64,000 bases of DNA from assembly GCF_040675875.1 (NCBI RefSeq), contig NZ_JBEGII010000001.1, positions 2,542,001 through 2,606,000 on the forward strand, written 5' to 3'. Positions within the stretch are counted from its first letter, which is position 1, and every line of letters begins with the position of its first letter. This document shows positions 26,509 to 60,769 of the stretch, one piece after another. The stretch is from Microbacterium sp. LWO12-1.2. GTDB taxonomy: Bacteria; Actinomycetota; Actinomycetes; Actinomycetales; Microbacteriaceae. The notes under the pieces were generated by a model, which made no database searches, was not told the origin of the DNA, and saw nothing but the letters and a program-made list of their open reading frames with translations. The position numbers and the translations under genes are program-made.

Positions 26509-27396
26509 ATGATTCGTTACGAGCCAGCCATCGACCTCGAGACGATCTCCGCGATCGACGTGCATGTGCACATCGAGGTCGACAGACACGGACGCACCTC
26601 GCTGCCTGATGACCTCTCGAGTGCCGCATCGGAGTACTTCTCTATTGACGGCCCGCGCCCGGACCTCGACTCGGTTGCGAAGTATTATCGGGAGCGCCGA
26701 ATGGCAGCGGTCGTGTTCACGGTCGGCGCGACGACGCAGTTGGGACACACAGGCATCTTCAGCGAGGAAATCGCCGAGGGCGCAGCGCACAACAACGACG
26801 TCCTCATCCCTTTCGGATCGGTCGATCCACGCCTCGGCGCCGCGGCTGTGGATCGCGCACGCCGTTTGATCGACGACTACGGTGTGCGCGGCTTCAAGTT
26901 CCACCCCCCTCTGCAGGGATTCGATCCGAGCGACGAAACGCATCACGCGCTTTACGGGCTCCTTGAGGGTGCCGGAGTGATCGCCCTCTTCCACACGGGA
27001 CAAACCGGCATCGGCGCCGGACTCCGAGGAGGGCGCGGTCTGCGCCTGGGGCTCTCGAACCCGATGCTGCTCGACCCGGTGGCTGCGGACTTCCCCGACC
27101 TACAGATCATCATGGCCCACCCGTCCGTGCCCTGGCAGGACGAGGCGCTGTCTGTAACGACCCACAAGCCCAACACCTGGATCGACCTGTCCGGTTGGAG
27201 CCCCAAGTACTTCCCCGAGAACCTCGTGAGTCATGCCAACTCGCTTCTCCGTTCCCGCATCCTGTTCGGATCGGACTTCCCGCTCCTCACCCCCGAACGC
27301 TGGATGAGGGACGCCGAGAAGACCTCGCTCAAGCCCGAGGTGATGCCGGGGATTCTCAAGGACAACGCGGCGCGACTACTCGGTCTCGCAGACTGA
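26509..27396 (+). CDS. COG2159-type amidohydrolase, paralogue of CouO
   Basis: 295 residues. The metal motif HVHIE (DVHVHIEVD) at residues 16-24, FKFHP, and the C-terminal FGSDFPLLTP mark an amidohydrolase of the LigW/CouO group. It is about 80-85 percent identical by eye to the protein at 57796-58689. The latter sits in a hydroxycinnamate cluster where this family hydrolyses beta-ketoacyl-CoA to an aromatic acid and acetyl-CoA. Here it lies between the amine-oxidation genes and pobA. Third codon positions differ widely between the copies, so they are not a recent duplication. ATG 26509 has only a weak ribosome site. Confidence 0.88.
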   Translation: MIRYEPAIDLETISAIDVHVHIEVDRHGRTSLPDDLSSAASEYFSIDGPRPDLDSVAKYYRERRMAAVVFTVGATTQLGHTGIFSEEIAEGAAHNNDVLIPFGSVDPRLGAAAVDRARRLIDDYGVRGFKFHPPLQGFDPSDETHHALYGLLEGAGVIALFHTGQTGIGAGLRGGRGLRLGLSNPMLLDPVAADFPDLQIIMAHPSVPWQDEALSVTTHKPNTWIDLSGWSPKYFPENLVSHANSLLRSRILFGSDFPLLTPERWMRDAEKTSLKPEVMPGILKDNAARLLGLAD

Positions 27397-27415
27397 CCCC
27401 ATCGGAAGGAGCACC

Positions 27416-27480
27416 ATGACCACCACCGTCGCCTCCTGCTCTCCCTCGTCATCGGATTCCAGGCCTTCATCAAGCTGATG
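27416..27480 (+). pseudogene. Apparent remnant of a MaoC-like hydratase gene
   Basis: The ribosome site and first codons (ATGACCACCACCGTCGCC, 27416-27433) match the start of the MaoC gene at 58709. They also sit at the same distance after the amidohydrolase stop. The next bases (CTGCTCTCCCTCGTCATC) resemble an internal MaoC segment coding for LSLSLVIKFW. About 170 bases between the two parts and everything downstream are missing. It is inferred to be the collapsed copy of the couM gene. Confidence 0.55.
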
Positions 27481-28281
27481 GCGAATTCTTCGACTGGCGA
27501 TTCCGTCGTCGCCCGCGTACTCCGTGTCTTGGACACGTTCACACCCACTCGCACGGTCCAGACGCGCAGTGAGATCGGCCGTCGAGCGGGCCTCCCGAGC
27601 TCGACCGCCCATCGCATCGTGAACGACCTGGTCGAGAGCGGTGTGCTGGAACGCGACGAGCACAACGGCATGCGGGTGGGTGTGCGCCTGTGGGAGCTGG
27701 CGACTCGGTCGTCCGACGCGCTCCGTCTGCGTCAAGCTGCGTTGCCCTCGATGGAGCGGGTGCAGGCGCGGATCGGGGAGCACACCCAACTCGCCGTCAG
27801 GGAGGCCGACGAGGCGCTGTTCCTGGAACGCCTCAGTAGCCCCGAGTCCGGAGCGAACATCACCAAGATCGCCGGCCGCCTTCCCCTGCACGCATCATCC
27901 TCGGGATTGGTTCTGCTCGCGTTTGCAGATCGCGCGACTCGGGAGCGGGTTCTGAGCCTACCGATGAAGCGTCTGACGAAAAGCACGATCACGGAGAGTT
28001 CCGACCTGCGGAGGAAGCTCAACGAGGTCCGCAGTGTCGGGTTCAGCATCGCTCCCGGTTACGTCGAAGAGGTCTCCACAGGTGTCGCAGTGCCCATCCG
28101 CGGCGAGCGCGGTGTCATCGCTGCGCTTTCGGTGGTCCTGCCCCGCGACTCCCCTACGGAAGGCCCGTTGGTGGCGATCATTCAAGCCGCGCGAGACATC
28201 GAACGCGCGCTCGGCGCTCATCGGCAGCGATCGATCGGATCCCCATTGAATGGGAATCTCGGTGGTGTAGCGCCCCGCTGA
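27478..28281 (+). CDS. IclR-family transcriptional regulator
   Basis: 267 residues. N-terminal winged helix (VVARVLRVLDTF, RRAGLPSSTAHRIVNDLVESGVLERDE) and C-terminal IclR effector domain (LPLHASSSGLVLLAFAD, SAPGY-like SIAPGYVEEVSTGVAVPI). PobR/PcaR-type IclR proteins regulate 4-hydroxybenzoate and protocatechuate genes, and this gene ends 53 bases before pobA, so pobA is the likely target. The ATG lies at the edge of the MaoC remnant and has no clear ribosome site; the true start may be a few codons away. Confidence 0.9.
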   Translation: MANSSTGDSVVARVLRVLDTFTPTRTVQTRSEIGRRAGLPSSTAHRIVNDLVESGVLERDEHNGMRVGVRLWELATRSSDALRLRQAALPSMERVQARIGEHTQLAVREADEALFLERLSSPESGANITKIAGRLPLHASSSGLVLLAFADRATRERVLSLPMKRLTKSTITESSDLRRKLNEVRSVGFSIAPGYVEEVSTGVAVPIRGERGVIAALSVVLPRDSPTEGPLVAIIQAARDIERALGAHRQRSIGSPLNGNLGGVAPR

Positions 28282-28334
28282 TTGGAGACTGAGACGGGCC
28301 CGCAGGCCTCGAGAATCACGTCAGAGGAGACGAC

Positions 28335-29519
28335 ATGCCCGCTCCCAGCCGCACCCGGGTCGCCATCATCGGCGCAGGCCCCGCAGGCCTCCTTCTCTCG
28401 CACCTGCTCTCGAGCGCCGGGATCGAGTCGATCGTCATCGATTCCCGCACCCGCGAGGAGATCGAGTCGACCATTCGCGCGGGGATCCTCGAGCAGGGCA
28501 CTGTCGAGCTTTTCGAGCAGACCGGCGCCTCGACGCGGGCGCGCGCCGAGGGGCACCGTCACGAGGGCATCGAGCTCCGCTTCGCGGGCGAAGGACACCG
28601 CATCGACTTCGCGGGGCTGACCGGACGTGCCGTATGGCTGTATCCGCAGCACGAGGCACTGAAGGACCTCATCGCCGCGCGCCTCGCCGACGGTCAGGAC
28701 CTCCGCTTCGGGGTCACGGCGAAGTCGGTGGAGGATGCCGAGGGCGACCGCCCTCGTGTCGTCGCCACGGACGCGGCCGGCGAGCGGTTCGAGATCGAGG
28801 CCGATTTCGTCGTGGGCGCGGATGGCTCGCGCAGCGTCGCACGCGCAGCCGTCACCGGCTCGCGCTCGGGCGGATACTTCCGCGAGTACCCGTTCGCCTG
28901 GTTCGGCATTCTCTGCGAGGCACCGCCGAGCGCGGACGAGCTGATCTACTCCAACTCCCCCGACGGCTTCGCGCTCATCAGCCAGCGCAGCGACACGGTG
29001 CAGCGCATGTACTTCCAGTGCGATCCCGACGACGACCCCACGGCCTACAGCGAAGCGCAGCTGTGGGAGGAGCTGCAGAAGCGGGTGCCCGGCACCACCC
29101 TCATCGAGGGCCGCATCTTCCAGCGCGACATCCTGCGGTTCCGCAGCTTCGTGGCACACCACCTGCTGAGGGGGCGCGTCGCCCTCATCGGCGACGCCGC
29201 CCACACCGTGCCGCCCAGCGGGGCGAAGGGCATGAACCTCGCGGTCGCCGACGTGGTCATCCTCGCGAAGGCGCTCCGCGCCCTGCTTCTCGAGAACGAC
29301 TCCCGTCTCATCGAGGCGTTCCCCGAGACCGCGCGACAGCGCATCTGGAAAGCGCAGCAGTTCTCGTGGTGGATGACGAGCCTGCTGCATGTCGCCCCGG
29401 ACGCGACCGACTTCGACCGCCTGCGCCAACTCGGCGAACTGCGCACGGTCGTGGAGTCCGAGGCCGGACGCACCTACCTCGCCGAGGCGTATACGGGATG
29501 GCCGCTCGCCGGTCTCTGA
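28335..29519 (+). CDS. pobA: 4-hydroxybenzoate 3-monooxygenase
   Basis: 394 residues, the normal PobA length. FAD-dependent NAD(P)H aromatic hydroxylase converting 4-hydroxybenzoate to protocatechuate. GAGPAG near residue 14, RAGILEQGTVEL, YPQHEALK, the DG motif VGADGSRS, SQRSDTVQRMYFQ (the PobA Ser/Arg substrate-carboxylate region) and GDAAHTVPPSGAKGMNLA are all present. ATG 28335 follows AGAGGAGA. Downstream, across a terminator and on the other strand, is the protocatechuate 4,5-cleavage operon that uses its product. Confidence 0.95.
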   Translation: MPAPSRTRVAIIGAGPAGLLLSHLLSSAGIESIVIDSRTREEIESTIRAGILEQGTVELFEQTGASTRARAEGHRHEGIELRFAGEGHRIDFAGLTGRAVWLYPQHEALKDLIAARLADGQDLRFGVTAKSVEDAEGDRPRVVATDAAGERFEIEADFVVGADGSRSVARAAVTGSRSGGYFREYPFAWFGILCEAPPSADELIYSNSPDGFALISQRSDTVQRMYFQCDPDDDPTAYSEAQLWEELQKRVPGTTLIEGRIFQRDILRFRSFVAHHLLRGRVALIGDAAHTVPPSGAKGMNLAVADVVILAKALRALLLENDSRLIEAFPETARQRIWKAQQFSWWMTSLLHVAPDATDFDRLRQLGELRTVVESEAGRTYLAEAYTGWPLAGL

Positions 29520-29568: not shown

Positions 29569-30276
29569 TCACGAGGCGGATGCCGCGTGGAAGCTGTGCG
29601 CGATCGCGATCGCCGAGGCCTCCGGCGAGGCGAAGAACTCGAGGACCGCACGGGCCGCCCCCGGATCATTAGAGCTCCGCGAGACGGCACCCGAGAACAC
29701 GGTGTCGATCGCGCAGTCGTCGGGGAGCACCCCGGTCACCCGGATGCCCGGCTGGCCCACGAGCTCGCTGAGCTGCTGGAAGCCCAGATCGACAGATCCC
29801 TGCGCCAGCAGCTGCGCCACCGGCACGCCGGGGTGGGCCTGCAGGAGCTTGGGGCCGACGGCATCCGTGAGACCCCATGCCCGGATCATCTCGAGCAGCG
29901 CCGTACCGCTCGGCCCTGTCGAGTACCCGACCCTCGCCGCTGAGCGCAGCGCGTCGCGCACGCCGGCCGCATCCGCGAAGGCGGCTTCGTCCGGCCGCTC
30001 GGCTCGACCGGCGCCGCCTGCGGGCACGGCGACCGCCACCTGCGAGATCACGAGCGGTGTGAGCGAGTCGTCGTCGACATGCCCCTGGGCGGCGAGGGCG
30101 GAAAGGGCTCCGGCGGCGAGGAAGACGAGGTCGAATCCCTCGCCCTCGGCGACGCGTCGGGCGGCCTCGACCCCTCCCGTCGACTCGATGTGCACGCGCG
30201 GGAGACCCACCTCGGCCGCGGCGACCGTGAGATCGGCGAGCAGATGCCGGGTGGCCATCGACGACACGGCTCTCAT
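29569..30276 (-). CDS. Substrate-binding-domain protein without signal peptide (ModA/PBP-like)
   Basis: 235 residues resembling a type-2 periplasmic-binding domain of the ModA-like kind (GFDLVFLAAGALSALAAQG, SVDLGFQQLSELVGQPGIRVTGVLPDD, VLEFFASPEASAI). It begins directly with the domain: no signal peptide, lipobox or helix-turn-helix is visible, so it appears cytoplasmic. ATG 30276 overlaps the stop of the aldo/keto reductase (ATGA). It is the last gene of the lig operon with no transporter nearby. Possible roles are a ligand-sequestering or sensor protein, or a tautomerase/isomerase-like recruited fold; unknown. Confidence 0.75.
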   Translation of the reverse strand: MRAVSSMATRHLLADLTVAAAEVGLPRVHIESTGGVEAARRVAEGEGFDLVFLAAGALSALAAQGHVDDDSLTPLVISQVAVAVPAGGAGRAERPDEAAFADAAGVRDALRSAARVGYSTGPSGTALLEMIRAWGLTDAVGPKLLQAHPGVPVAQLLAQGSVDLGFQQLSELVGQPGIRVTGVLPDDCAIDTVFSGAVSRSSNDPGAARAVLEFFASPEASAIAIAHSFHAASAS

Positions 30277-31244
30277 GCGGCCTCGAAGGTCTCGGTGTCG
30301 ACGTCCGCAGCGGGACCCGGCGCGTACCGCGGTCCGGAGACGGTGTCGGTGCCGATGAGCCGTCCCGCCCTGCGCAGGATCTCCGGCGGCACCTCGACGT
30401 CGACGGCGGCGAGATCCTCGCGCAGATGCGTCGGATCCGTCGTGCCGGGGATCGCGACGACGTGCTCTCCGCGCGAGAGCACCCACGCGAGGGCGAGCTG
30501 CGCGGGAGTGCACCCGGCCTCGTCGGCGAGCGCGTGCCAGTCCGGAAGCAGCGCGGCGTTGATGGGCCAGTGCTCGGGCTGGAAGCGGGGCATGGAGCGA
30601 CGGATGTCGTTCGACGCCAGGTGCGCCGGGTCCGACACCCCGCGGCTCAGGAAGCCGCGGGCGACGGGCGAGAAGGCGACGAACGCCACGCCGGACTCGC
30701 GGGTGGCGTCGAGCATGCCGAGTTCGGGGTTCCGACTCCAGAGCGAGTACTCGTTCTGCACGGCGGCGATCGGAGCAGTCCGCTGCGCCTCTCGAAGACG
30801 CGCGACCGACACCTCCGAGAGCCCGATCGCGCCGATCCTGCCGTCATCGACGAGCTCCGCCAGCGCGCCGACGCTCTCGCCGATCGGCACCGAGCGGTCC
30901 CAGCGGTGCAGATAGTAGAGGTCGATGCGGTCCACGCCGAGGCGACGCAGCGATTCGTCGACCTGGGTGCGCAGGGTGTCGGGGCGTCCGTCGATCGTGC
31001 GCACGCCGTCAACGAGCGCCATCCCGCCCTTGCTCGCGAGCAGCACCTCGTCGCGCCGACCGGCGACCGCCCTCCCGACGAGCTCCTCGTTGCGACCGCC
31101 GCCGTACAGGGTCGCGGTGTCGAGCATCCCCACTCCCGCGTCGAGCGCCGCACACAGCAGAGCCAGGCCGTCCGCGTCCGACGGGGGCACTCCGTAGGCG
31201 TGGCTCAGCGACATGCAGCCGAGGCCGATGCGGGGCAGGATCAC
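30273..31244 (-). CDS. Aldo/keto reductase
   Basis: 323 residues of the AKR superfamily (TIM barrel). LDTATLYGGGRNEELVGRA, LLASKGGM with the catalytic Lys, DLYYLHRWD with the catalytic His and the NADP-binding IPGTTDPTHLRED are present. GTG 31244 overlaps the ligC stop (GTGA), so it is translationally coupled to the lig operon. It has no counterpart in the textbook 4,5-cleavage pathway. It could reduce an aromatic aldehyde or a ring-cleavage by-product. Confidence 0.9.
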   Translation of the reverse strand: MILPRIGLGCMSLSHAYGVPPSDADGLALLCAALDAGVGMLDTATLYGGGRNEELVGRAVAGRRDEVLLASKGGMALVDGVRTIDGRPDTLRTQVDESLRRLGVDRIDLYYLHRWDRSVPIGESVGALAELVDDGRIGAIGLSEVSVARLREAQRTAPIAAVQNEYSLWSRNPELGMLDATRESGVAFVAFSPVARGFLSRGVSDPAHLASNDIRRSMPRFQPEHWPINAALLPDWHALADEAGCTPAQLALAWVLSRGEHVVAIPGTTDPTHLREDLAAVDVEVPPEILRRAGRLIGTDTVSGPRYAPGPAADVDTETFEAA

Positions 31245-32194
31245 GCGAGCTGCTCCTCCAGCGCGCCGAGCACGCGGTAGCAGTCGATGACCTGACGCAG
31301 CGACGAGTTCGGCTCGCGTCCTTCGCGGATCGCGGCGACGAACTCGCGGTCCTGCAGCTCGATGCCGTTGAAGCTCACGGCCACCTGCGACACGTCGATC
31401 TGCTGATCCCTGCCGTCGTAGAGGTCGTCGTAGCGGGCGACGTACGTGGCGGTGTCTCCGATGTAGCGGAAGAACGTGCCGAAGGGCCCGTCGTTGTTGA
31501 ACGACAGCGACAGCGTGCAGATTGCCCCGGTCTCGCTCTTCAGCTGGATCGACATGTCCATCGCGATGCCGAGCTCGGGGTGGATCGGGCCCTGGATCGC
31601 GTGCGCCTGCACGATGCGCCCCGCCTGGTAAGCGAAGAGGTCGACGGTGTGGGCCGCGTGATGCCAGAGGAGGTGGTCGGTCCACGAGCGCGCCTCGCCC
31701 TTGGCGTTCGTGTTCGTGCGGCGGAAGAAGTACGTCTGCACGTCCATCTGCTGCACGGCGAACTCGCCGGCGGCGATGCGCTCGTGCACCAGCTGGTGGG
31801 AGGGGTTGAACCGCCGCGTGTGGCCGACCATTGCGACGCGGTCCGAGGCCTCGGCCACGGCGAGGGTGGCCTCGGCGTCGGCCAGCGAGTCCGCGAGCGG
31901 GATCTCGACCTGCACGTGCTTGCCGGCCGCGAGCACCGCCTGGGTCTGTGCGGCGTGCAGTCCGGTGGGAGTCGCGAGGATCACGGCGTCCACGTCGTCG
32001 CGCTCGAGCACGGCATCCAGCCCCACGACGGCGGTCGCGACGCCGTACTGCGCGGCGACGGCATCCGCCTTCTCCTGCGAAGTCGCGCTGACGACCGTCA
32101 CCTCCGCGTCCTCGATGTTCGCGAGGCCGTCGAGGTGCTTCATGCCGAAGGCGCCGTTGGCGCCGACAACCGCGATTCGGATCTTGTCTGTCAT
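31241..32194 (-). CDS. ligC: 4-carboxy-2-hydroxymuconate-6-semialdehyde dehydrogenase (Gfo/Idh/MocA family)
   Basis: 317 residues, the length of LigC. NAD(P)-dependent oxidation of the LigAB ring-cleavage product (hemiacetal form) to 2-pyrone-4,6-dicarboxylate. The N-terminal Rossmann motif VGANGAFGMKHL and the Gfo/Idh/MocA core (EIPLADSLADAEA, WTDHLLWHHAAHTVDLFAYQ) are clear. Assignment as LigC rests on family, size and its position between the dioxygenase and the other lig genes. ATG 32194 follows GGGAGGAAA. Confidence 0.85.
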   Translation of the reverse strand: MTDKIRIAVVGANGAFGMKHLDGLANIEDAEVTVVSATSQEKADAVAAQYGVATAVVGLDAVLERDDVDAVILATPTGLHAAQTQAVLAAGKHVQVEIPLADSLADAEATLAVAEASDRVAMVGHTRRFNPSHQLVHERIAAGEFAVQQMDVQTYFFRRTNTNAKGEARSWTDHLLWHHAAHTVDLFAYQAGRIVQAHAIQGPIHPELGIAMDMSIQLKSETGAICTLSLSFNNDGPFGTFFRYIGDTATYVARYDDLYDGRDQQIDVSQVAVSFNGIELQDREFVAAIREGREPNSSLRQVIDCYRVLGALEEQLA

Positions 32195-32227: not shown

Positions 32228-33631
32228 TCAGGCGTTCGACAGCGCTGCCGTCGCCTCGGGCTCGCTCGAGCCCTCGGGCGCGGAGCTGCGCGTCGGCACG
32301 GCCGCATCGGCGTCGTCTTCGGCGAGGGCGGGCGTGCGGACCGGGTTCGACAGGACGAGGTGTCCGACCGCGGTGTTCGACGCGGGGACGTGATAGAACC
32401 GGTGGCCCACCTCGGGAGCCTCGCCGCCGAACTGGTCGTCCATCGCGCCGCGGGCGATGAGCCAGTCGACGAGCTCGATCCCCTCAGAGCCCGCCTCGTC
32501 GACGTACTCCATGTGAGGCCACTCCGTGAGTCCGAGCGGGTCGGCGATCAGGTGGTCGAGGAACGCGTTGTCCCACTCCTTGTTGATGAGTCCGGCGCGC
32601 GGTCCCTGCAGCTGGTGGCTCATGCCGCCGGTTCCCCAGATCTGCACGTTCAGCTCTTCGCCGTCCCACTTGTCGATCGCGCGGCGCAGAGCCTTGCCCA
32701 GCTCGTAGCAGCGTCGGCCGGACGGCACCGGGTACTGCACGACGTTCACGGCGAGCGGGATGACTCGGACCGGCCACTCCTCGACCTCGCCGTACACGAG
32801 GGACAGCGGCACGGTCAGGCCGTGGTCGACGACCATCTCGTTGACGAGGGTGAGGTCGAAGTCGTCCTGGATGATCGACTGCGCGAGGTGCGCGGCGAAC
32901 TCCGGGTAGCCCTTCACATCCGGAACGGGACGAGGACCATAACCCTCGTCGGCGACCGGGTACTCGGCACCCGTGCCGAGGACGAAGGTGGGGATGATCG
33001 AGGCGTCGAAGGCCGTGGCGTGGTCGTTGTACACGAGGATCACGACATCGGGGGTGTTCTCCTTCGCCCATGTGCGGGTCCACCGGTAGCCGTCGAAGAC
33101 CTTCTTCCAGTACGGCTCCTCCGTCTTGCCGAGATCCATCGCCGCACCGATCGCCGGGACGTGCGACGTGAACAGCGCCGAGGTGTAGCGGGCGGGGGCG
33201 TCCGGCCGGACGGCGGTCGCCTTCTCGGTCGACCGGGGCGTCCATCCGTCGAGGTCCTTCAGGCGGTTGCCCTCGGGGCGACGGCCGCCGGCGACCATCA
33301 TGTCCCGGTACGCGGCCTCCGACATCCCGGTCATCGAGCCCGCCATCTGCTGGAAGCTGAGTCCGTGGGTCGCGCCGATCTTGCTGAGGAAGTAGATGTT
33401 CCCTCCCTCGGCGATCATGGTGTTGAGGTCCATGTCGAGCACCGCCTGGCGCTGCACCGGGTTCAGCGGCCACTCGTCGAGGTACGCCTCCTGATCCGCG
33501 AGGAACCGCTCCCGGTTCTCGGGCTTCATCAGCGACATCGAGAACTGGTTGAGGTGGTATCCCTTGCGCGCCTGCTCGGCGTCGTAGATCGTCGTGCCGG
33601 GGACGTCCTTGTACGGCTTGTCGAGTGCCAT
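32228..33631 (-). CDS. ligAB: Protocatechuate 4,5-dioxygenase, fused alpha-beta (LigA-LigB)
   Basis: 467 residues. Residues 1-120 are the LigA-type alpha domain (MALDKPYKDVPGTTIYDAEQA ... WPLNPVQRQAVL). Residues ~145-430 are the LigB extradiol domain with Fe(II) ligands in TSHVPAIG and YNDHATAFD and the catalytic His region GTGGMSHQLQGPR. An acidic, low-complexity tail of ~35 residues follows. It cleaves protocatechuate (or gallate) between C4 and C5. ATG 33631 has AAGGAG at a seven-base spacing; ATG 33637 overlaps the ligI stop (ATGA) but lies too near the ribosome site. In Sphingobium LigA and LigB are separate chains; gallate dioxygenases are fused, so gallate activity is possible. Confidence 0.9.
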   Translation of the reverse strand: MALDKPYKDVPGTTIYDAEQARKGYHLNQFSMSLMKPENRERFLADQEAYLDEWPLNPVQRQAVLDMDLNTMIAEGGNIYFLSKIGATHGLSFQQMAGSMTGMSEAAYRDMMVAGGRRPEGNRLKDLDGWTPRSTEKATAVRPDAPARYTSALFTSHVPAIGAAMDLGKTEEPYWKKVFDGYRWTRTWAKENTPDVVILVYNDHATAFDASIIPTFVLGTGAEYPVADEGYGPRPVPDVKGYPEFAAHLAQSIIQDDFDLTLVNEMVVDHGLTVPLSLVYGEVEEWPVRVIPLAVNVVQYPVPSGRRCYELGKALRRAIDKWDGEELNVQIWGTGGMSHQLQGPRAGLINKEWDNAFLDHLIADPLGLTEWPHMEYVDEAGSEGIELVDWLIARGAMDDQFGGEAPEVGHRFYHVPASNTAVGHLVLSNPVRTPALAEDDADAAVPTRSSAPEGSSEPEATAALSNA

Positions 33632-33633
33632 GG

Positions 33634-34569
33634 TCATTCTCCTTCTGGCCAGTACAGCCGCCGCGGGTTGTCGACGAGCAGCTGCCGCTGCAGGTCGGCG
33701 GTCGGGGCGATCTGCGGGATGTAGTCGACCAGGAGCCCGTCGTCGGGCATGTGGTCCTTGAGATTGGGGTGGGGCCAGTCGGTGCCCCACAGCACGCGGT
33801 CGGGGAACTCCTCGACCACGCGACGGGCGAAGGGCACGACGTCGGTGTACGCGTGCTGCTCGCCGTGCAGAGCGCGTGGACCGTCGATGCTGAGCCGCTC
33901 GGGGCACGACACCTTGGTCCACACGCGGGGGTTCTCGCGCAGGAAGCTCAGGAACAGCTCGAACTCCGGGCCGTCCGGATCCTTCGAGACATCGGGGCGA
34001 CCCATGTGGTCGACGACGATATCCGTCGGGATGCCGGAGAAGAAGTCGTACAGCTCGGGGAGGTCGTCGGCTTCGAAGTAGATCACGACGTGCCAGCCGA
34101 GCGGCGCGACCTTCGCGACGATCTCTTCGAGCGAGTCGGTCGGCACCCGGTCGACCAGGCGCTTGACGAAGTTGAAGCGCACGCCGCGCACACCCGCCTC
34201 GTGCAGCTCGGCGAGCTCTTCGTCGGTCACATCGCGCCGCACGGTCGCGACGCCCCGGGCGCGGCCCTCGCTGCGGCGGAGGGCATCGAGGAGTGCGCTG
34301 TTGTCGGCGCCGTGGCAGGTGGCCTGCACGATCACGTTGCGGTCGAAGCCGAGGTGGTCCCGCAGGGCGAACAGCTGCTCCGCCGACGCATCGCACGGTG
34401 TGTACTTGCGTTCCGGCGCGTAGGGGAACTCAGCCCCCGGCCCGAACACATGGCAATGCGCGTCCACCGCACCCTCCGGCACCTGGAACATCGGGGTGCT
34501 GGGGCCGTCGTACCAGTCCAGCCATCCGGCGGTCTTCTCGAAGCCGCCGCTCGTGTCTCCGTGCGACAC
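33634..34569 (-). CDS. ligI: 2-pyrone-4,6-dicarboxylate hydrolase
   Basis: 311 residues, amidohydrolase superfamily (COG3618/LigI type). DAHCHVFGPGAEFPYAPERKYTP is the characteristic N-terminal metal and substrate motif of LigI; VVDHMGRPD and LWGTDWPHPN complete the site. It hydrolyses 2-pyrone-4,6-dicarboxylate to 4-oxalomesaconate. GTG 34569 is chosen because GGAGGA lies seven bases upstream and the coding start then follows directly on the ligK stop; the open frame further upstream is antisense-like. Confidence 0.93.
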   Translation of the reverse strand: MSHGDTSGGFEKTAGWLDWYDGPSTPMFQVPEGAVDAHCHVFGPGAEFPYAPERKYTPCDASAEQLFALRDHLGFDRNVIVQATCHGADNSALLDALRRSEGRARGVATVRRDVTDEELAELHEAGVRGVRFNFVKRLVDRVPTDSLEEIVAKVAPLGWHVVIYFEADDLPELYDFFSGIPTDIVVDHMGRPDVSKDPDGPEFELFLSFLRENPRVWTKVSCPERLSIDGPRALHGEQHAYTDVVPFARRVVEEFPDRVLWGTDWPHPNLKDHMPDDGLLVDYIPQIAPTADLQRQLLVDNPRRLYWPEGE

Positions 34570-34570
34570 G

Positions 34571-35263
34571 TCAGTCCTCCCGGTACTCGAGGCCGGCGGC
34601 GGCGAGCTTCTCGCGCATGCCGTAGATGTCGAGGCCGAGCATGCCCTCGCGGAACTTCTCGCGCTTGGCCTCTTCGTTGTCCTCGCGTGCGCGGCTCGCG
34701 TCGGCGACCGCTCCGACCAGCGCGCGCGGCACCACGACGACGCCGTCGACGTCGGCCACGACGACATCACCCGGGTTGACCAGGGCATTGGCGACCACCA
34801 CCGGGACGTTCACCGAGCCGAGCGTCGCCTTGACCGTCCCCTTGGAGTGGATCGCCCGCGAGAACACGGGGAAGTTCATCCGCTCAAGGTCGGCGACGTC
34901 TCGAACTCCGCCGTCGATCACGAGCCCCTTGCACCCGCGCGCGGTGAGCGAGGTTGCGAGCAGCTCGCCGAAGAAGCCGTCCTCGCTCTCCGTCGTACAG
35001 CCCGCGACGAGGACATCACCCGCGCTCACATGCTCCGCCGCGACGTGGAACATCCAGTTGTCACCTGGCTGCAGGAGCACGGTCACCGCGACGCCGCACA
35101 GCTTCGCTTCGGGATATACCGGACGGATGTAGGGGCGGAGAAGCCCGACCCTGCCCATCGCCTCATGAATGGTGGCGACGCCGAACTGGGAGATCCGCTC
35201 GACGTCGTCAGGATCGGGTCGCTCGATGTTCGTGTGGACGATACCGAGGTCGTTCAGGCGCAT
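34571..35263 (-). CDS. ligK: 4-carboxy-4-hydroxy-2-oxoadipate aldolase (RraA-like class II)
   Basis: 230 residues. The RraA/HMG-CHA aldolase fold shows GVAVTVLLQPGDN, GDVLVAGC, the pyruvate-binding GFFGELLATSLTARG and the metal/proton-relay Arg-Asp in IDGGVRDVADL. It splits 4-carboxy-4-hydroxy-2-oxoadipate into pyruvate and oxaloacetate, the last step of the pathway. The start ATG follows GAAAGG ten bases after the ligJ stop. Confidence 0.93.
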   Translation of the reverse strand: MRLNDLGIVHTNIERPDPDDVERISQFGVATIHEAMGRVGLLRPYIRPVYPEAKLCGVAVTVLLQPGDNWMFHVAAEHVSAGDVLVAGCTTESEDGFFGELLATSLTARGCKGLVIDGGVRDVADLERMNFPVFSRAIHSKGTVKATLGSVNVPVVVANALVNPGDVVVADVDGVVVVPRALVGAVADASRAREDNEEAKREKFREGMLGLDIYGMREKLAAAGLEYRED

Positions 35264-35273: not shown

Positions 35274-36302
35274 TCAGAGCCCGCGGGCGGTCAGTGCTCG
35301 GTCGAGCCGCGGGTACACCCGGCGGGCGTTGCCCTCGAAGACGGCGAAGCGCTCGATATCGGTCAGGTTCGGCGTCGCGTCGACATAGCGCCTCGTGTCA
35401 TCGAAATAATGCCCGGTGCGCGGGTCGATGTCGCGCACGGCACCGATCATCTCGCTGGCGAACAGGATGTTCCTCGTCGGAATGACTTCGGCCAGCAGAT
35501 CGATCCCCGACTGGTGGTAGACACACGTGTCGAAGAACACGTTGCCCAGAAGATGCTCCTCGAGCTCCGGCTTCCCCAGTGCCATGGCCAGTCCACGAAA
35601 GCGACCCCAGTGATACGGGACCGCTCCGCCGCCGTGCGGGATCACGAACTTGAGGTCGGGGAAGTCGCGGAACAGATCGCCTTTGAGTAGTTGCATGAAG
35701 GCAGTGGTATCGGCACCGAGATAGTGGTCGCCGGTTGTGTGGAATACCGGCTTGCAAGACGTGCTGACGTGGATCATGGCCGGCAGCTCGTACTCCACGA
35801 GCTTCTCGTAGATCGGGTACCAGGATCGATCCGTGAGCGCGGGAGCCGTCCACAGCCCGCCGGCCGGGTCGGGGTTGAGATTGACCGTGACGACGCCGAG
35901 CTCTTCGACCGCACGCGTAATCTCGGCGACGCTCGTCGCGGGATCAGCCCCTGGGGATTGCGGGAGCATCGCGCCGGGGAGGAACCGGTCAGGGAAAAGC
36001 TCGCTCACCCGGGCGCACAGGTCATTGCAGATGCGCGCCCAGGTCTCGCTCACATTCAGATCGCCGATGTGGTGCGCCATGAAGGACGCGCGAGGGCTGA
36101 ACAGGGTGAGGTCGCTGCCGCGGTCGTTCATCAGGCGAAGCTGGTTCGCCTCGATCGTCTCGCGGATATCGTCGTCGTCGATGCGGAGAGCAGCCGGATC
36201 GGGGGATTCTCCGTCGCCGTTCGTGAATGCGATCTGCAGATCCCGCCACGCACCGAGTTGAGCGGGGGCTGTCGTGTAGTGCCCGTGTACATCGATGATC
36301 AC
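35274..36302 (-). CDS. ligJ: 4-oxalomesaconate hydratase (amidohydrolase-type LigJ)
   Basis: 342 residues, the size of LigJ. An amidohydrolase-fold zinc hydratase: N-terminal DVHGHY, central MIHVST and FVIPHGGGAVPYHWGRFRG, and C-terminal FASEMIGAVRDIDP are LigJ-typical. It hydrates 4-oxalomesaconate to 4-carboxy-4-hydroxy-2-oxoadipate. GTG 36302 follows AAGGA. It is the first gene of the seven-gene lig operon and is divergent from the LysR regulator. Confidence 0.92.
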   Translation of the reverse strand: MIIDVHGHYTTAPAQLGAWRDLQIAFTNGDGESPDPAALRIDDDDIRETIEANQLRLMNDRGSDLTLFSPRASFMAHHIGDLNVSETWARICNDLCARVSELFPDRFLPGAMLPQSPGADPATSVAEITRAVEELGVVTVNLNPDPAGGLWTAPALTDRSWYPIYEKLVEYELPAMIHVSTSCKPVFHTTGDHYLGADTTAFMQLLKGDLFRDFPDLKFVIPHGGGAVPYHWGRFRGLAMALGKPELEEHLLGNVFFDTCVYHQSGIDLLAEVIPTRNILFASEMIGAVRDIDPRTGHYFDDTRRYVDATPNLTDIERFAVFEGNARRVYPRLDRALTARGL

Positions 36303-37988: not shown

Positions 37989-38053
37989 GCGTCGAGAATA
38001 GGGCAAGAGCGGTGCCTTGTGATGAGCGGTCGGCGTCTATTCTCGGCAGGTGG

Positions 38054-43293: not shown

Positions 43294-43380
43294 ATCGTGC
43301 GTCCTCTCGACGTTCATCGCAGAGCCCTCGGGACGGACTCCGGTTCCGTCATTGAACCGCAGATCGACCTTAATGTGGTG

Positions 43381-43400: not shown

Positions 43401-43443
43401 CCATCACGCGCATCCATGGGAATTTGAATAATCTTCTTGCAAA

Positions 43444-45255: not shown

Positions 45256-45260
45256 CGACC

Positions 45261-45965: not shown

Positions 45966-45971
45966 TCTCTC

Positions 45972-51561: not shown

Positions 51562-51654
51562 GGTGCTCCTCGGGTACTCGCACTCAAGGTCGGGTGAAAG
51601 CACTCTACGAAAAAACCCGCCGTTTGTATAGAGCTCGTCACAAAATAAAAATCG

Positions 51655-52248: not shown

Positions 52249-52280
52249 GATTACTCCTCTGCGTACGGGCCACCGCCCCG

Positions 52281-52745: not shown

Positions 52746-52811
52746 GGGGGTTCCTTTTGTCGTGGTCCTTCAGGTGTGTTCCTCGGCGGTCATGCGCAGA
52801 CCCGAGCGGAA

Positions 52812-54506: not shown

Positions 54507-54535
54507 CACCCTTTCGCGGGGCAGGACTCCCCGAT

Positions 54536-56295: not shown

Positions 56296-56775
56296 TCAGC
56301 CGCGCGGCGAGAAGGCGACCTCACGCAGAATCTCGGCCAGCCGACCTTGCGCCTCCTCGTCGAGCACCGAGTACAACCGCTCTTCCGCCGCGCGCGCCGC
56401 GTGGTGGGCGACCCGGTGCAGGCGCACTCCGGCATCCGTCGCGACGACGACGTTCGCCCGGCGATCTCGAGGGTCAGGCTGCCGCTCGACAAGACCATCG
56501 GCCTGCAGTTCGTCGATGAGCGCCACGACCTGACTGGGATCGAGCCGGAGGAAGTCGGCGAGCTCGCGCTGCGACGGACGCTCGCCGGAGACGGCGAGTG
56601 CGAGCACCGAATAGGACCTCACACGCAGTCCGTGCGCCGCGAGCGCCACGTTTCCTGCGGCGAGCGACAGCGCGTTCGTCCGGGCGAGCAGGAAACTGAG
56701 CTCGTCGGCGAGGTCGCTCTCGCGCAGCCGGTCCACAGCCACGCTCACATCGTCGGTCGGAATCGGGGAGGTCAC
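56296..56775 (-). CDS. couR: MarR-family regulator, CouR-like
   Basis: 159 residues. Winged helix-turn-helix: VRSYSVLALAVSGERPSQRELADFLRLDPSQVVALIDELQADGLVERQPDPRDRR, the classical MarR DxR wing. In Rhodococcus jostii, CouR is a MarR repressor of hydroxycinnamate genes released by the CoA thioester; the gene context here is the same. GTG 56775 is preferred; no ribosome site is seen and the transcript may be leaderless. Divergent from the SDR with a 27-bp palindrome between. Confidence 0.85.
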   Translation of the reverse strand: MTSPIPTDDVSVAVDRLRESDLADELSFLLARTNALSLAAGNVALAAHGLRVRSYSVLALAVSGERPSQRELADFLRLDPSQVVALIDELQADGLVERQPDPRDRRANVVVATDAGVRLHRVAHHAARAAEERLYSVLDEEAQGRLAEILREVAFSPRG

Positions 56776-56804: not shown

Positions 56805-56831
56805 ACAATGATTGACTTTCTCAATCATTGT
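56805..56831. promoter_or_regulatory. MarR/CouR operator
   Basis: Perfect 11-bp arms ACAATGATTGA (56805-56815) and TCAATCATTGT (56821-56831) with a five-base spacer, between the divergent MarR gene and the SDR-led operon. Confidence 0.8.
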
Positions 56832-56863: not shown

Positions 56864-57799
56864 ATGTCGCTCAACGGAAAAGTCGCCATCGTCACCGGCT
56901 CCGGCCGCGGACTGGGCCTCGCCTACGCGCAGGAACTCGCACGCCAGGGAGCCTCCGTCGTGATCAACGACGTCGACGCCGCCATCGCAGACTCAGCGGT
57001 CGACAGCATCCGCGCCACCGGTGGAGAGGCCGTCGCCGTCGCGGCGCCGGTCGGGTCGTCCGACACCGCGCAGGCTCTGGTCGACGCCGCCGTCTCCAGT
57101 TTCGGACGCCTCGACATCCTTGTGACGAATGCGGGAGTCCTGCGCGACACAGTGCTCTGGAAGATGAGCGACGACGACTTCGACACCGTGATCGACGTCC
57201 ACCTGCGCGGAACGTTCACGACGGTCCGCGCCGCCGCGACCTACATGCGTGAGAACGAGATCGCCGGCCGCATCGTCTGCATCGGATCGCCGACCGGACA
57301 GCGCGGCAACTTCGGTCAGACCAACTATGCCGCCGCGAAGGCTGGAATCGTCGGGATGGTGCGCACGTGGGCGCTCGAGCTCCGTCGCGCGGGGATCACT
57401 GCCAACGCGGTCATCCCCGTCGCCGCCACCGCCATGACCGCGACGGTGCCGTACTTCGCCGCCGCCGTCGAGGCGGATGCCGCAGGAAAGCCGATGCCCG
57501 ACTTCTTCCGGCACGACCTCGGCTTCGGCACCGCTGACGACGTCAGCGGGCTCATCGCCTATTTGGCTTCGGACGACGCGTCCGGCGTGACCGGACAGGC
57601 GATCGGCATCGGCGGCGACCGCATCCAGCTCTGGTCCCACCCCGAGCCCGTGGTCACCGAGTACCGCACAGGCGGTTGGACGACCGCCGACCTCGAGGAG
57701 CGTTTCCCCGCTCTCATCGGCGAGAGGTTGCAGGAGGTCGGCGAGAAATTCCCGGCGCTTCCCGCAGAGCTCCAGCGCCCTGCACCCCAGGACCAATGA
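56864..57799 (+). CDS. couN: SDR-family beta-hydroxyacyl-CoA dehydrogenase, CouN-like
   Basis: 311 residues. TGSGRGLGLAYA is the NAD-binding motif, NAGVLRD and YAAAKAG (Tyr-x3-Lys) the catalytic region; the C-terminal ~60 residues (WSHPEPVVTEYRTGGWTTADLEERFPALI) extend beyond the SDR core, as in peroxisomal/actinobacterial 3-hydroxyacyl-CoA dehydrogenases. It would oxidise the hydrated hydroxycinnamoyl-CoA to the beta-keto thioester. ATG 56864 follows GAAAGGA. Its stop overlaps the amidohydrolase start (ATGA). Confidence 0.87.
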   Translation: MSLNGKVAIVTGSGRGLGLAYAQELARQGASVVINDVDAAIADSAVDSIRATGGEAVAVAAPVGSSDTAQALVDAAVSSFGRLDILVTNAGVLRDTVLWKMSDDDFDTVIDVHLRGTFTTVRAAATYMRENEIAGRIVCIGSPTGQRGNFGQTNYAAAKAGIVGMVRTWALELRRAGITANAVIPVAATAMTATVPYFAAAVEADAAGKPMPDFFRHDLGFGTADDVSGLIAYLASDDASGVTGQAIGIGGDRIQLWSHPEPVVTEYRTGGWTTADLEERFPALIGERLQEVGEKFPALPAELQRPAPQDQ

Positions 57800-58689
57800 G
57801 CGTGGCACGGTACGAATCGGCCATCGATCTCGCGTCGATCACCGCCATCGACATGCACGTGCACATCGAGGTCGACGAACACGGACACACCTCGTTGCCG
57901 TCCGACCTCGCTGACGCTGCCTCCGCCTACTTCTCGACAGAGGGGCCGCGCCCCGATCTCGACTCGGTGGCGGCCTACTATCGCGCTCACCGCATGGCCG
58001 CGGTCGTCTTCACGGTCGACGCGTCGACGCAGCTGGGCCACAGGGGCATCGCGAGCGAGGAAGTCGCCGAAGGCGCGGCGCGCAACAACGACGTGCTCAT
58101 CCCCTTCGGTTCGGTGGACCCGCGCCTCGGGGACGAGGCTGTCGATCGCGCACGGCGCCTCATCGACCGGCACGGCGTTCTCGGTTTCAAGTTCCACCCC
58201 ACCGTGCAGGGGTTCGATCCCAGCGATCAGACCCACTACCCGCTCTACGAGGTGCTGCAGGATGCCGGGGTGGTCGCGCTCTTCCACACAGGCCAGACGG
58301 GCATCGGCGCCGGGCTCCCGGGCGGGCGTGGCCTGCGTCTCGGACTGTCGAACCCGATCCTGCTCGACCCGGTGGCCGCGGACTTCCCCGACCTGCAGAT
58401 CGTCATGGCACACCCGTCGGTGCCCTGGCAGGACGAGGCACTGTCCGTGGCCACCCATAAGCACAACACCTGGATCGACCTGTCGGGCTGGAGCCCGAAG
58501 TACTTCCCCGAGAACCTCGTCCGACACGCGAACACGCTCCTCCGATCGCGCGTGCTCTTCGGCTCCGACTTCCCCCTCCTCACCCCCGAACGCTGGATGA
58601 GAGACGTCGAAACGACGGCGCTCAAGCCTGAGGTGATGCCAGGCATCCTCAAGGACAACGCCGCACGCCTGCTCGGACTCGCACGCTGA
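57796..58689 (+). CDS. couO: CouO-like amidohydrolase (beta-ketoacyl-CoA hydrolase)
   Basis: 297 residues, COG2159 amidohydrolase. Metal motif HVHIE (MHVHIEVD), FKFHPTVQGF, and FGSDFPLLTPERWM. In Rhodococcus jostii this family member cleaves 4-hydroxyphenyl-beta-ketoacyl-CoA hydrolytically to 4-hydroxybenzoate and acetyl-CoA, replacing a thiolase. Coupled to couN by ATGA overlap. A second copy of the gene lies at 26509. The assignment comes from gene order (MarR, SDR, amidohydrolase, MaoC, ligase) and family. Confidence 0.85.
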   Translation: MSVARYESAIDLASITAIDMHVHIEVDEHGHTSLPSDLADAASAYFSTEGPRPDLDSVAAYYRAHRMAAVVFTVDASTQLGHRGIASEEVAEGAARNNDVLIPFGSVDPRLGDEAVDRARRLIDRHGVLGFKFHPTVQGFDPSDQTHYPLYEVLQDAGVVALFHTGQTGIGAGLPGGRGLRLGLSNPILLDPVAADFPDLQIVMAHPSVPWQDEALSVATHKHNTWIDLSGWSPKYFPENLVRHANTLLRSRVLFGSDFPLLTPERWMRDVETTALKPEVMPGILKDNAARLLGLAR

Positions 58690-58708: not shown

Positions 58709-59161
58709 ATGACCACCACCGTCGCCTATGCCGACGTCAACGGCCTCGCCGGCACCGATCTCGGCTGGTCCGAGTGGCTCGAGGTCACGCAGGACCGTGT
58801 GAACCTCTTCGCCGACGCCACCGACGACCACCAGTGGATCCACACCGACCCCGAGCGCGCGAAGGACGGCCCCTTCGGAGGACCGATCGCGCATGGCTTC
58901 CTGTCCCTCTCGCTCGTCATCAAGTTCTGGACCGAGCTGTTCGACGTCGACGGCGTCTCCACCAAAGTCAACTACGGCCTCGACAAGGTCCGCTTCATCT
59001 CCCCCGTGACCGTCGGCGCTCAGGTCCGCGGCAATGCCGTGATCGCCGAGGTCACCGAGATCCCCGGTGGCTACCAGCTCGCCGTCGATCACGCCATCGA
59101 GATCCAGGGCGCGGCCAAGCCAGCCGTCGCCGCGAGGAGCCTCTATCGCTTCTACGCGTGA
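58709..59161 (+). CDS. couM: MaoC-type enoyl-CoA hydratase, CouM-like
   Basis: 150 residues. The MaoC motif DATDDHQWIHTDPERAKDGPFGGPIAHGFLSLSL contains the catalytic Asp and His and the second hydratase region. It would hydrate hydroxycinnamoyl-CoA. ATG 58709 follows GAAAGGA 19 bases after couO. A matching but collapsed copy of the gene start lies at 27416. Confidence 0.87.
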   Translation: MTTTVAYADVNGLAGTDLGWSEWLEVTQDRVNLFADATDDHQWIHTDPERAKDGPFGGPIAHGFLSLSLVIKFWTELFDVDGVSTKVNYGLDKVRFISPVTVGAQVRGNAVIAEVTEIPGGYQLAVDHAIEIQGAAKPAVAARSLYRFYA

Positions 59162-59166
59162 CACCC

Positions 59167-59192
59167 CGGCGCCCGGCATCCGCCGGGCGCCG
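59167..59192. terminator. Hairpin between couM and couL
   Basis: 11-bp perfect stem CGGCGCCCGGC (59167-59177) and its complement (59182-59192) around ATCC. It would attenuate or end transcription between the two genes. A perfect 18-bp palindrome, half-site GGGCGCATC, follows at 59203-59220. Confidence 0.65.
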
Positions 59193-59202
59193 ACATCACT
59201 TC

Positions 59203-59220
59203 GGGCGCATCGATGCGCCC
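59203..59220. promoter_or_regulatory. Perfect 18-bp palindrome before the couL gene
   Basis: Half-sites GGGCGCATC and GATGCGCCC meet without spacer, 17 bases upstream of the preferred couL start. It could be an operator or a structured mRNA element. Confidence 0.4.
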
Positions 59221-59236
59221 CGCCTCAATGAAGAGA

Positions 59237-60769
59237 ATGATGCACACACAAGGACTGGGAGCCTGGCTCCCTCGACGCCGTCTGCGCAACCCCAGCAAGG
59301 CGGCGATCGTCTTCGGAGACGGTCAGCAGCTCTCCTATGCGCAGCTCGCACACTCGGCGGAGCGCATGTCCGCGGTTCTCGTCGAACGCGGCGTGCGCCA
59401 GGGCGACAGCGTCGCCTACCTCGGCGAGAACAGCCCGGACTTCCTCATCACGCTGTTCGCCACGGCGCGGATCGGCGCCGTGTTCGTCCCCGTCAACACC
59501 CGCCTCGCGGTACCCGAGATCGCGCATGTCCTCACGGACAGCAGCGCTCGCATGCTGATCCACGATCCGGATTTCGCCCATCGGCTCGAGCGCATGCTCG
59601 CCTCGCCCGGCGCCCCGGCCCTTGCCATCCGCACCGGATCGTCACGACGCGACGGCTCCCTCGGGCTCACCCGTCTGATCGATCAGGCCACGGACGTCCC
59701 GCCATTGCAGGCGGCCGACGACGACACTCCTGCGGCCATCGTCTACACCTCGGGGACCACGGGTCGGGCCAAGGGCGCCGTCCTCACGCACGCGAACCTG
59801 ACCGCGGTGGCTGTCAACAACCTCATCGACTATGACATCTGCTCCGACGACGTCGCACTGATGATCTCCCCCCTGTTCCACGTCGCGGCTCTGGGCATGG
59901 GAGCGCTGCCGGTGCTCCTCAAGGGCGGCACCCTCGTTCTCGAGAGGGGCTTCGATGCCGGCACAGCGCTGGATCTGATCGAACGCCACCGCGTAACCAT
60001 GCTCTCCGGCGTCCCCACCACATTCCAGCTGCTTGCCGATCACCCGGCGTGGGCTTCGACCGACCTGTCGAGTCTCCGCACACTGACCTGCGGAGGGTCC
60101 GCGGTGCCCTCGCGTATCCTTGCAGCCTACGAGGAACGCGGGATGTCGTTCTCCCAGGGGTATGGGATGACCGAAACATCGCCTGGCGCGACCTCGCTAT
60201 CCCCCGAGATGACCGTGCACAAGCACGGCAGCGTCGGCCTTCCGCACTTCTTCACCGATGTCCGCGTGGCCGATGAGCACGGCAGGGAGGTCACGGCGGG
60301 AACCGTCGGCGAGATCCAGATCACGGGGCCCAACGTCTTCGCGGGCTATCACGGCCTTCCCGATGCGACGGCCGCTTCGCTCACTTCGGATGGCTGGTTC
60401 CGCTCGGGTGACCTCGGATACGTCGACGACCACGGCTACCTCTACATCGCCGACCGGTTGAAGGACATGATCATCTCCGGCGGGGAGAACATCTATCCCG
60501 CCGAGGTCGAATCACTCATCGCGGACATCGACGGGGTGACCGGAGCCGCCGTGATCGGCGTCCCCGACGATCGGTGGGGCGAGGTGCCGATCGCGGTCCT
60601 CACGGTTCGAGACGGCTTCGAGATCACGCTCGAAACCGTTCGCGGCGCGCTGGAAGGACGTATCGCCCGCTACAAGCTGCCCACCCGCGTTGAGATCGTG
60701 GACTCGCTGCCGCGAACCGCCTCGGGCAAAGTTCGCAAACACGGAGTGCGGGAACTGTTCCCGCGTTGA
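59237..60769 (+). CDS. couL: AMP-forming acyl-CoA synthetase, CouL-like hydroxycinnamate-CoA ligase
   Basis: About 510 residues of the ANL superfamily: P-loop YTSGTTGRAKGAVLTH, GYGMTETSPG, the hinge YIADRLKDMIISGGENIYPAEVE, and the acetylatable Lys in PRTASGKVRKH. It activates an aromatic or hydroxycinnamic acid to its CoA ester, the first step of the cou pathway. Several in-frame ATGs (59213, 59228, 59237, 59240) exist; 59237/59240 give the usual family start (MHTQGLGAWL). A hairpin and palindrome separate it from couM, so its expression may be set separately. Confidence 0.88.
   Translation: MMHTQGLGAWLPRRRLRNPSKAAIVFGDGQQLSYAQLAHSAERMSAVLVERGVRQGDSVAYLGENSPDFLITLFATARIGAVFVPVNTRLAVPEIAHVLTDSSARMLIHDPDFAHRLERMLASPGAPALAIRTGSSRRDGSLGLTRLIDQATDVPPLQAADDDTPAAIVYTSGTTGRAKGAVLTHANLTAVAVNNLIDYDICSDDVALMISPLFHVAALGMGALPVLLKGGTLVLERGFDAGTALDLIERHRVTMLSGVPTTFQLLADHPAWASTDLSSLRTLTCGGSAVPSRILAAYEERGMSFSQGYGMTETSPGATSLSPEMTVHKHGSVGLPHFFTDVRVADEHGREVTAGTVGEIQITGPNVFAGYHGLPDATAASLTSDGWFRSGDLGYVDDHGYLYIADRLKDMIISGGENIYPAEVESLIADIDGVTGAAVIGVPDDRWGEVPIAVLTVRDGFEITLETVRGALEGRIARYKLPTRVEIVDSLPRTASGKVRKHGVRELFPR

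Follow-up and report, generated by a model that had tools for sequence, protein, structure and literature searches.

From plant hydroxycinnamates to 4,5-cleavage of protocatechuate: a probable chromosomal route in Microbacterium sp. LWO12-1.2 made of known actinobacterial cou and pcm gene sets

By which ring-opening route would a Microbacterium that carries the side-chain genes for plant hydroxycinnamates degrade the protocatechuate formed from them? The question is raised by a stretch of 64,000 nucleotides of Microbacterium sp. LWO12-1.2 (the window; positions 2542001-2606000 of contig NZ_JBEGII010000001.1; the genome, 4.1 Mb in 4 contigs, has a completeness rating of 100%), which holds a cou side-chain cluster, the 4-hydroxybenzoate 3-monooxygenase gene pobA and a pcm operon for the 4,5-cleavage of protocatechuate (Table 1). 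A preliminary description, made from the sequence, had read these genes as a complete route in which a Rhodococcus-type side-chain pathway appeared to be joined, unusually, to a Sphingobium-type ring pathway. With Pfam, NCBIfam and blastp, the cou, pobA and lig genes that it named were all located near the positions it gave, the 26509 at which it began being the start of a second couO-like gene, and family, synteny and regulator-box evidence supports the predicted order of hydroxycinnamate, 4-hydroxybenzoate, protocatechuate and 4,5-cleavage. We consider it very probable that the window encodes a chromosomal plant-hydroxycinnamate route with 4,5 ring opening, composed of pcm and cou genes of the kinds known from actinobacteria.

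The chemistry of the cou, pobA and 4,5-cleavage pathways is established. In the proposed route, CouL would act on a p-hydroxycinnamate such as p-coumarate to give the CoA ester, which CouM would hydrate to the hydroxyacyl form, CouN would oxidise to the ketoacyl form and CouO would split into 4-hydroxybenzoate and acetyl-CoA, with CouR repressing the cou cluster, as we suppose, until hydroxycinnamoyl-CoA appears. PobA would turn 4-hydroxybenzoate into protocatechuate, the fused LigAB would open this at the 4,5 position to 4-carboxy-2-hydroxymuconate-6-semialdehyde, LigC would form 2-pyrone-4,6-dicarboxylate and LigI 4-oxalomesaconate, and LigJ would yield 4-carboxy-4-hydroxy-2-oxoadipate, from which LigK would release pyruvate and oxaloacetate; the pcm genes may be under the control of the LysR regulator. 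Each enzyme activity and each regulatory link, as well as the passage of cou products into pcm, is here predicted from gene family and gene position.

In the ring-cleavage part, on the minus strand from 36302 down to 29569, run ligJ, ligK, ligI, ligAB, ligC, a gene for an aldo/keto reductase and one for a solute-binding-protein-like domain protein, with 4-base overlaps at three joints and with the lysR gene standing before ligJ; the start of ligAB overlaps the stop of ligI by 4 bases. The dioxygenase is a single frame of 469 aa (32231-33637), matched by PCA_ligA at residues 9-125 and by the beta model PRK13366 at 149-431. It passes the equivalog model for the fused alpha/beta enzyme, PRK13372 (877.4 bits against a cut-off of 837), and falls below the cut-off of the gallate dioxygenase model (332 against 412 bits). 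H159, H206, H272, H341 and E385, which we take to be the catalytic and iron residues, are invariant across six aligned fused enzymes. Part of this set is matched in the published account of a related enzyme (PMC8431788).

The eight genes, with the same order, the same orientation and a divergent lysR, are found on plasmid pRE1 of Arthrobacter keyseri 12B (NZ_AF331043), at identities of 84% for ligJ, 87% for ligK, 88% for ligI, 90% for ligAB, 86% for ligC, 75% for the aldo/keto reductase, 60% for the solute-binding-like protein and 72% for lysR. The A. keyseri genes bear the names pcmDECABF, in that order. Since the operon genes are 60-90% identical to those of a known plasmid operon and stand in the same order, a chance origin of the gene set is excluded. 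The A. keyseri operon is borne on a plasmid, whereas the one described here lies on a chromosome-sized contig of 4.07 Mb with pobA and an iclR-type gene adjoining. A megablast search of window positions 1-24900 against plasmids returned only partial matches of single regions. The A. keyseri dioxygenase is also shorter by about 35 C-terminal residues, the extra residues here (32231-32338) being of low complexity and a similar tail being present in one aligned relative (L007). Gene order is likewise the same in the meta-cleavage operon of plasmid pASPHE302 of Pseudarthrobacter phenanthrenivorans Sphe3, whose dioxygenase, PcaA, is 91% identical to LigAB and is the only relative of the ring enzymes for which we know of an assay. 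When expressed, PcaA is reported to be highly specific for protocatechuate and also to convert gallate, and the Sphe3 meta-cleavage genes to form one transcriptional unit (PMC8431788).

The gene-for-gene correspondence to pcm and the score over the fused equivalog cut-off make a strong case for 4,5-cleavage, and the label "Sphingobium-type" given in the preliminary description is wrong. In sets of the Sphingobium type ligA and ligB are separate genes, whereas the fused ligAB, the single gene run with 4-base overlaps and the A. keyseri order argue against lig genes of Sphingobium type or origin here; the genes form an actinobacterial pcm operon with a fused dioxygenase instead. Where organisation types are described, the Sphingobium type comprises several transcriptional units, and Sphe3 is placed with the Comamonas type (PMC8431788).

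The upstream parts are pobA and the cou cluster. PobA scores 499 bits with the subfamily model NF006091 (cut-off 351), and the solved structures closest to it, 8weq at 464 bits first, are without exception those of 4-hydroxybenzoate hydroxylases. Together with its likely regulator, pobA adjoins the end of the pcm operon on the opposite strand and, as judged from sequence, would bridge the cou side-chain genes and the pcm ring genes. In the cou cluster, a MarR-type gene faces couN-couO-couM-couL, and the best solved relatives of its product are the CouR structures of Rhodococcus jostii RHA1 (3FM5 and 5CYV, about 92 bits each). Between couR and couN lies a predicted CouR box, CAATGATTGA-CTTTC-TCAATCATTG, with the core ATTGA-5-TCAAT. 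The repeat is perfect, and none of 100 shuffled versions of the window contained a match; a further match, at 3 mismatches, overlaps the same site, and no other site in the genome has 2 mismatches or fewer. When the couR-couN intervals of 12 Microbacterium loci (the window and 11 others) were aligned, 11 showed the core ATTGA-5-TCAA intact and one (L153) a single change. For RHA1 the published CouR box, cATTGA--TCAATg, has its inverted halves 5 bp apart and overlaps the -35 element; one such box lies between couR and couN, and CouO is described as an amidohydrolase-superfamily enzyme yielding an aromatic acid (PMC4737184). The two clusters thus share a couR divergent from couN, the box core, spacer and -35 overlap, and an amidohydrolase-type CouO; they differ in that four promoters of RHA1 (couN, couR, couT and couH) bear a CouR box, against one box in the genome studied here, and in that the RHA1 product enters the beta-ketoadipate pathway and not a 4,5 ring route (PMC4737184).

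A genome-wide search for pcaGH, named in the preliminary description as a check and as one of the two conditions for its refutation, found no ortho route with PF00775 or TIGR02422. PF00775 gave a single partial match (23-97 of 182; 35.7 bits) which, though above the Pfam cut-off of 27.3, was rejected as pcaGH because it is partial and lies in a lipoprotein-like frame. No PcaH was found in this genome with TIGR02422 at E <=1e-30; the model is over its cut-off in 50 of 119 Microbacterium genomes. Sphe3, in contrast, is reported to hold a chromosomal pcaGH in addition to its plasmid operon (PMC10815724).

Table 1. Features of the predicted route (positions are those of the window)
Feature	Position	Strand	Basis
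Second CouO-like amidohydrolase (CouO2)	26509..27396	+	84% to CouO (blastp)
iclR-type regulator, likely of pobA	27478..28281	+	IclR_C, HTH_IclR; adjoins pobA in many Microbacterium and Demequina loci
pobA, 4-hydroxybenzoate 3-monooxygenase	28335..29519	+	NF006091; solved relatives
Solute-binding-protein-like domain protein of pcm operon	29569..30276	-	SBP_bac_11 114.7 bits; 60% to A. keyseri
Aldo/keto reductase of pcm operon	30273..31244	-	Aldo_ket_red; 75% to same-place A. keyseri gene
ligC-like 4-carboxy-2-hydroxymuconate-6-semialdehyde dehydrogenase	31241..32194	-	OxRdtase_C 309 bits, GFO_IDH_MocA; 86% to A. keyseri
Fused ligA-ligB protocatechuate 4,5-dioxygenase (PcmA/PcaA type, alpha part first)	32228..33637	-	PRK13372; 90-91% to A. 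keyseri, Sphe3
ligI-like 2-pyrone-4,6-dicarboxylate hydrolase	33634..34560	-	Amidohydro_2; 88% to same-place A. keyseri gene; no NCBIfam over cut-off
ligK/pcmE aldolase	34571..35263	-	TIGR02798 ligK_PcmE 396.6 bits, cut-off 304.5; 87% to A. keyseri
ligJ-like 4-oxalomesaconate hydratase, first gene of operon	35274..36302	-	Amidohydro_2; 84% to A. keyseri; no NCBIfam match
lysR-type regulator (pcmR/pcaR-like), divergent from pcm operon	36409..37332	+	Pfam HTH_1, LysR_substrate; 72-73% to same-place regulators of pRE1, pASPHE302
couR-like MarR regulator	56296..56775	-	Likely GTG start near 56775, longest ORF to 56808; solved relatives
CouR box, 10-base inverted repeat with 5-base spacer (predicted)	56806..56830		Overlaps -35-like TTGACT
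couN, short-chain dehydrogenase	56864..57799	+	adh_short; 72-85% to couN-position genes of 11 other Microbacterium cou clusters
couO, amidohydrolase-superfamily beta-ketoacyl-CoA hydrolase	57796..58689	+	Amidohydro_2; 70-82% to best match in 38 other genus genomes
couM, MaoC-like hydratase	58709..59161	+	MaoC_dehydratas; 70-83% in 11 Microbacterium cou clusters
couL, hydroxycinnamoyl-CoA ligase	59213..60769	+	AMP-binding; 53-73% in 11 Microbacterium cou clusters

Several points weigh against the proposed route. The cou and pcm clusters stand 19 kb apart (24 kb from LigAB to CouO) with seemingly unrelated transport genes between them, and the CouR box is near neither pobA nor pcm, which leaves co-regulation conjectural. 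PobA, at 389 bits, stays under the cut-off of 539 of the equivalog TIGR02360, and LigJ and LigI are assigned from synteny, no NCBIfam model having reached its cut-off. The word "complete" in the preliminary description holds for the named genes and needs a caveat at one step, for a search with PF04303 found no 4-oxalomesaconate tautomerase of the PrpF family (LigU/GalD type) in the genome; the A. keyseri and Sphe3 stretches likewise list no PrpF-type tautomerase.

How ordinary the combination is can be judged from its occurrence elsewhere. A search with a profile of actinobacterial LigAB was evaluated for the best 80 of 577 relatives, chosen by likeness to that profile and not a census, and to this set the locus counts that follow refer. 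The enzyme is fused at all 38 actinobacterial loci and at 12 of 41 loci of Pseudomonadota, and in a LigAB tree that took 6 of these 12 as outgroup, a branch with 100/100 support separates the actinobacterial rows from them. CouO (E <=1e-60) is present in 22 of the 36 named actinobacterial genomes with fused LigAB (the 38 loci without L032, from the same strain as L022, and L036, a contig of 5.5 kb). Cou genes lie within 10 kb at 4 of the 38 loci (L024, L048 and, as partial sets, L043 and L044), a count made with some loci cut by contig ends and with weak CouL- and CouN-like matches (26-35%) excluded. In Microbacterium aurantiacum Sa12 (L024) about 14 kb hold couL-M-O-N, marR, lysR, ligJ-K-I-AB-C, the solute-binding-like gene, pobA and iclR, 58-91% identical to the genes here; there the set forms one stretch with no match to the aldo/keto reductase, whereas here it forms two clusters 19 kb apart with a second couO. 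In Kitasatospora griseola (L048) the cou set starts about 4 kb beyond the pobA-lig set, and a plasmid of Streptomyces sp. NBC_00046 carries couN-O-L-M, lig genes, pobA and iclR in about 12 kb. These three clusters and the CouO counts contradict the view of the preliminary description that the joining is unusual: the parts and their combination are common to several related bacteria, and the finding is sound and largely ordinary.

The same description had called the 4,5 route a minority trait among actinobacteria, and this agrees with the counts. Fused LigAB was found in 11 of the 119 genomes of the genus sample and, as a full-length single frame, in 7 of the 198 genomes of an order sample (4 genera, Microbacterium included), where 10 genomes gave a LigAB match and three of these (G101, G115, G148) matched the LigB part only, at 51-52%. 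CouO is present in all 7 and in 22 of the remaining 191, among them two of the three LigB-part-only genomes, these counts including 5 genomes whose sole match is 39-40% identical. Arthrobacter sp. FB24 has pcmA on a plasmid and is reported to have a CouR homologue (PMC4737184). A small fraction of 4,5-dioxygenases is assigned to Actinobacteria in another study, which took two actinobacterial gene sets for tests (PMC10233912). In Microbacterium strain DEP1M, a protein named protocatechuate 4,5-dioxygenase subunit alpha/beta is reported to be made and to be upregulated on diethyl phthalate relative to protocatechuate, the full meta set not being detected (PMC13038979); expression of such a dioxygenase in Microbacterium is, on that report, already published. 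Among the paper titles and abstract openings examined, none describes hydroxycinnamate degradation coupled to 4,5-cleavage in an actinobacterium.

The distribution within the genus adds something to this picture. Among the 119 genomes, fused LigAB occurs in 11, PcaH in 50 and CouO (E <=1e-90) in 39, and LigAB and PcaH never occur together (0 of 11; Fisher p 0.002). Every one of the 39 CouO genomes has exactly one ring route, LigAB in 6 and PcaH in 33, with none having both or neither (p 6e-16); without CouO there are 17 PcaH genomes and 5 LigAB genomes, and 58 have none of the three genes. Among Microbacterium species with cou, pcaGH is the usual ring route; pcm stands in for it in a minority to which the present one belongs. 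The distance from CouO to PcaH is at most 12 kb in 17 of the 33 genomes and greater on the same contig in 8, the two being on separate contigs in the other 8; from CouO to LigAB it is at most 12 kb in one of the 6 (M. aurantiacum) and 24 kb in the window, with the two genes on different contigs in the remaining 4. In one genome (G313) a pca cluster begins about 1.3 kb from couR; its PcaH, PcaG and PcaC pass their models, and its PcaB and PcaD match their own or a bifunctional model best, under the cut-offs. On an rpoB tree of 30 of the 119 genomes, hand-picked (11 of 11 lig, 15 of 50 pca and 4 of 58 with neither) and with 15 of 27 inner branches well supported, at least 8 switches between lig and pca are required to account for the 26 labelled genomes. 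We are slightly inclined to regard cou as a shared upstream module behind which pcaGH and pcm cassettes, nearly mutually exclusive, have been swapped many times, which would make the genus a natural experiment on route choice.

Some results speak against so strict a rule. Five of the 11 LigAB genomes of the genus lack CouO, the association of CouO with LigAB alone is not significant (p 0.17), and the Fisher tests treat genomes as independent, ignoring relatedness. Of the 36 named actinobacterial LigAB genomes, 19 give a TIGR02422 match at E <=0.001; PcaH is over the cut-off in two genomes of the Arthrobacter group, P. sulfonivorans RIT817 and Arthrobacter SPG23, Microbacterium sp. CH12i, outside the genus sample, combines fused LigAB with a PcaH-like protein of 263 bits (cut-off 296), and the remaining best matches do not exceed 64 bits. 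Sphe3, as already said, is reported to have both routes (PMC10815724). CH12i also carries two fused LigAB genes on different contigs (L022, L032).

Other explanations of the locus have to be weighed. The pcm operon might receive its substrate from a different upstream route (phthalate, vanillate or gallate) and lie close to cou by coincidence. Such a role, which we think unlikely, would suit the plasmid location of the characterised pcm relatives, the origin of Sphe3 protocatechuate from phenanthrene via phthalate and the conversion of gallate by the Sphe3 enzyme, both as reported (PMC8431788), as well as the gap of 19 kb and the fact that, of the 5 further genus genomes with both LigAB and CouO, 4 have them on separate contigs. 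It accords poorly with pobA, which directly adjoins pcm here and lies near it in many relatives, with the failure to find a pcaGH for the protocatechuate expected from cou and pobA, and with the one ring route in every CouO genome of the genus sample; moreover, there is no ring-hydroxylating dioxygenase among 40 Pfam-scanned proteins of the window, the remaining genome not having been searched for phthalate or vanillate genes. More doubtful still is that the cou enzymes serve a different aryl or alkyl enoyl-CoA and neither p-coumarate nor ferulate. CouL matches general acyl-CoA ligase models only, and a place in other routes has been proposed for CouO-like enzymes, HpeF of acetovanillone catabolism being an example (PMC9618137), but the regulator has CouR as its best solved relatives, the operator carries the CouR core and spacer, and the four cou genes stand together as in other cou clusters.

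That the locus is an exceptional, one-off join of Rhodococcus-type and Sphingobium-type pathways, as first proposed, is highly improbable. The rarity of fused LigAB in the genus and order samples might be taken in its favour, as might an older survey with a 4,5-dioxygenase gene in one of 53 actinobacterial genomes (cited by PMC8431788), but fusion of the enzyme at every actinobacterial locus of the profile search, the frequent presence of CouO in those genomes and clusters with both sets in three genera speak otherwise, and a join unique to this genome is refuted by these clusters. The reading as a chromosomal hydroxycinnamate route ending in 4,5-cleavage is the one we prefer.

Several neighbouring genes remain to be described. 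CouO2 is the sister of CouO in a tree of 39 rows (support 99/97) and hence looks like this lineage's duplicate; its 84% identity to CouO makes the two about as distant as CouO proteins of different species, which reach 82%. Its gene follows one of the aminobutyraldehyde dehydrogenase type and precedes iclR-pobA, with no CouR box nearby at 3 mismatches or fewer. The dehydrogenase (25034-26485), considered as an aromatic-aldehyde enzyme of the route, was rejected as such: at 675 bits it exceeds the cut-off of 615 of the subfamily model for aminobutyraldehyde dehydrogenases, though not that of the stricter TIGR03374, and betaine or aminobutyraldehyde dehydrogenases are its best solved relatives. 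The aldo/keto reductase and the solute-binding-like protein are kept in pcm operons, the latter at 31 of the 38 actinobacterial loci by our own count and at a number of Pseudomonadota loci, and no signal peptide is evident in it by eye. At five Demequina loci (L031, L033, L035, L037, L039) the operon beside lysR begins at ligI, ligJ and ligK being unmatched within the locus stretch. The interval between pcm and cou (41644-56191) holds a peptide-type ATP-binding cassette transporter set with two SBP_bac_5 proteins, two permease frames and two ATPases, together with an amidase and an amidohydrolase. Two proteins of the acyl-CoA-dehydrogenase fold (13144-14340 and 43424-44767) are nearest to the HsaA-type flavin monooxygenase model, under its cut-off, and are possibly other aromatic oxygenases; the frame at 37329-38006 gives a weak partial match to PF10706, the aminoglycoside-2''-adenylyltransferase family (31 bits, Pfam cut-off 21).

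The mild novelty of the work thus lies in a shared cou module with interchangeable ring-opening cassettes, a modest point at the level of the genus that none of the paper titles and abstract openings examined mentions. Fused LigAB is spread thinly but widely, through Microbacterium and its order and also in Streptomyces and Kitasatospora, so that the actinobacterial 4,5 route is more than a trait of Arthrobacter plasmids. The near exclusion of lig and pca within the genus makes the selection of a ring route testable among close relatives, and work on lignin could benefit from a host that has no pcaGH and channels hydroxycinnamates derived from lignin toward 2-pyrone-4,6-dicarboxylate.

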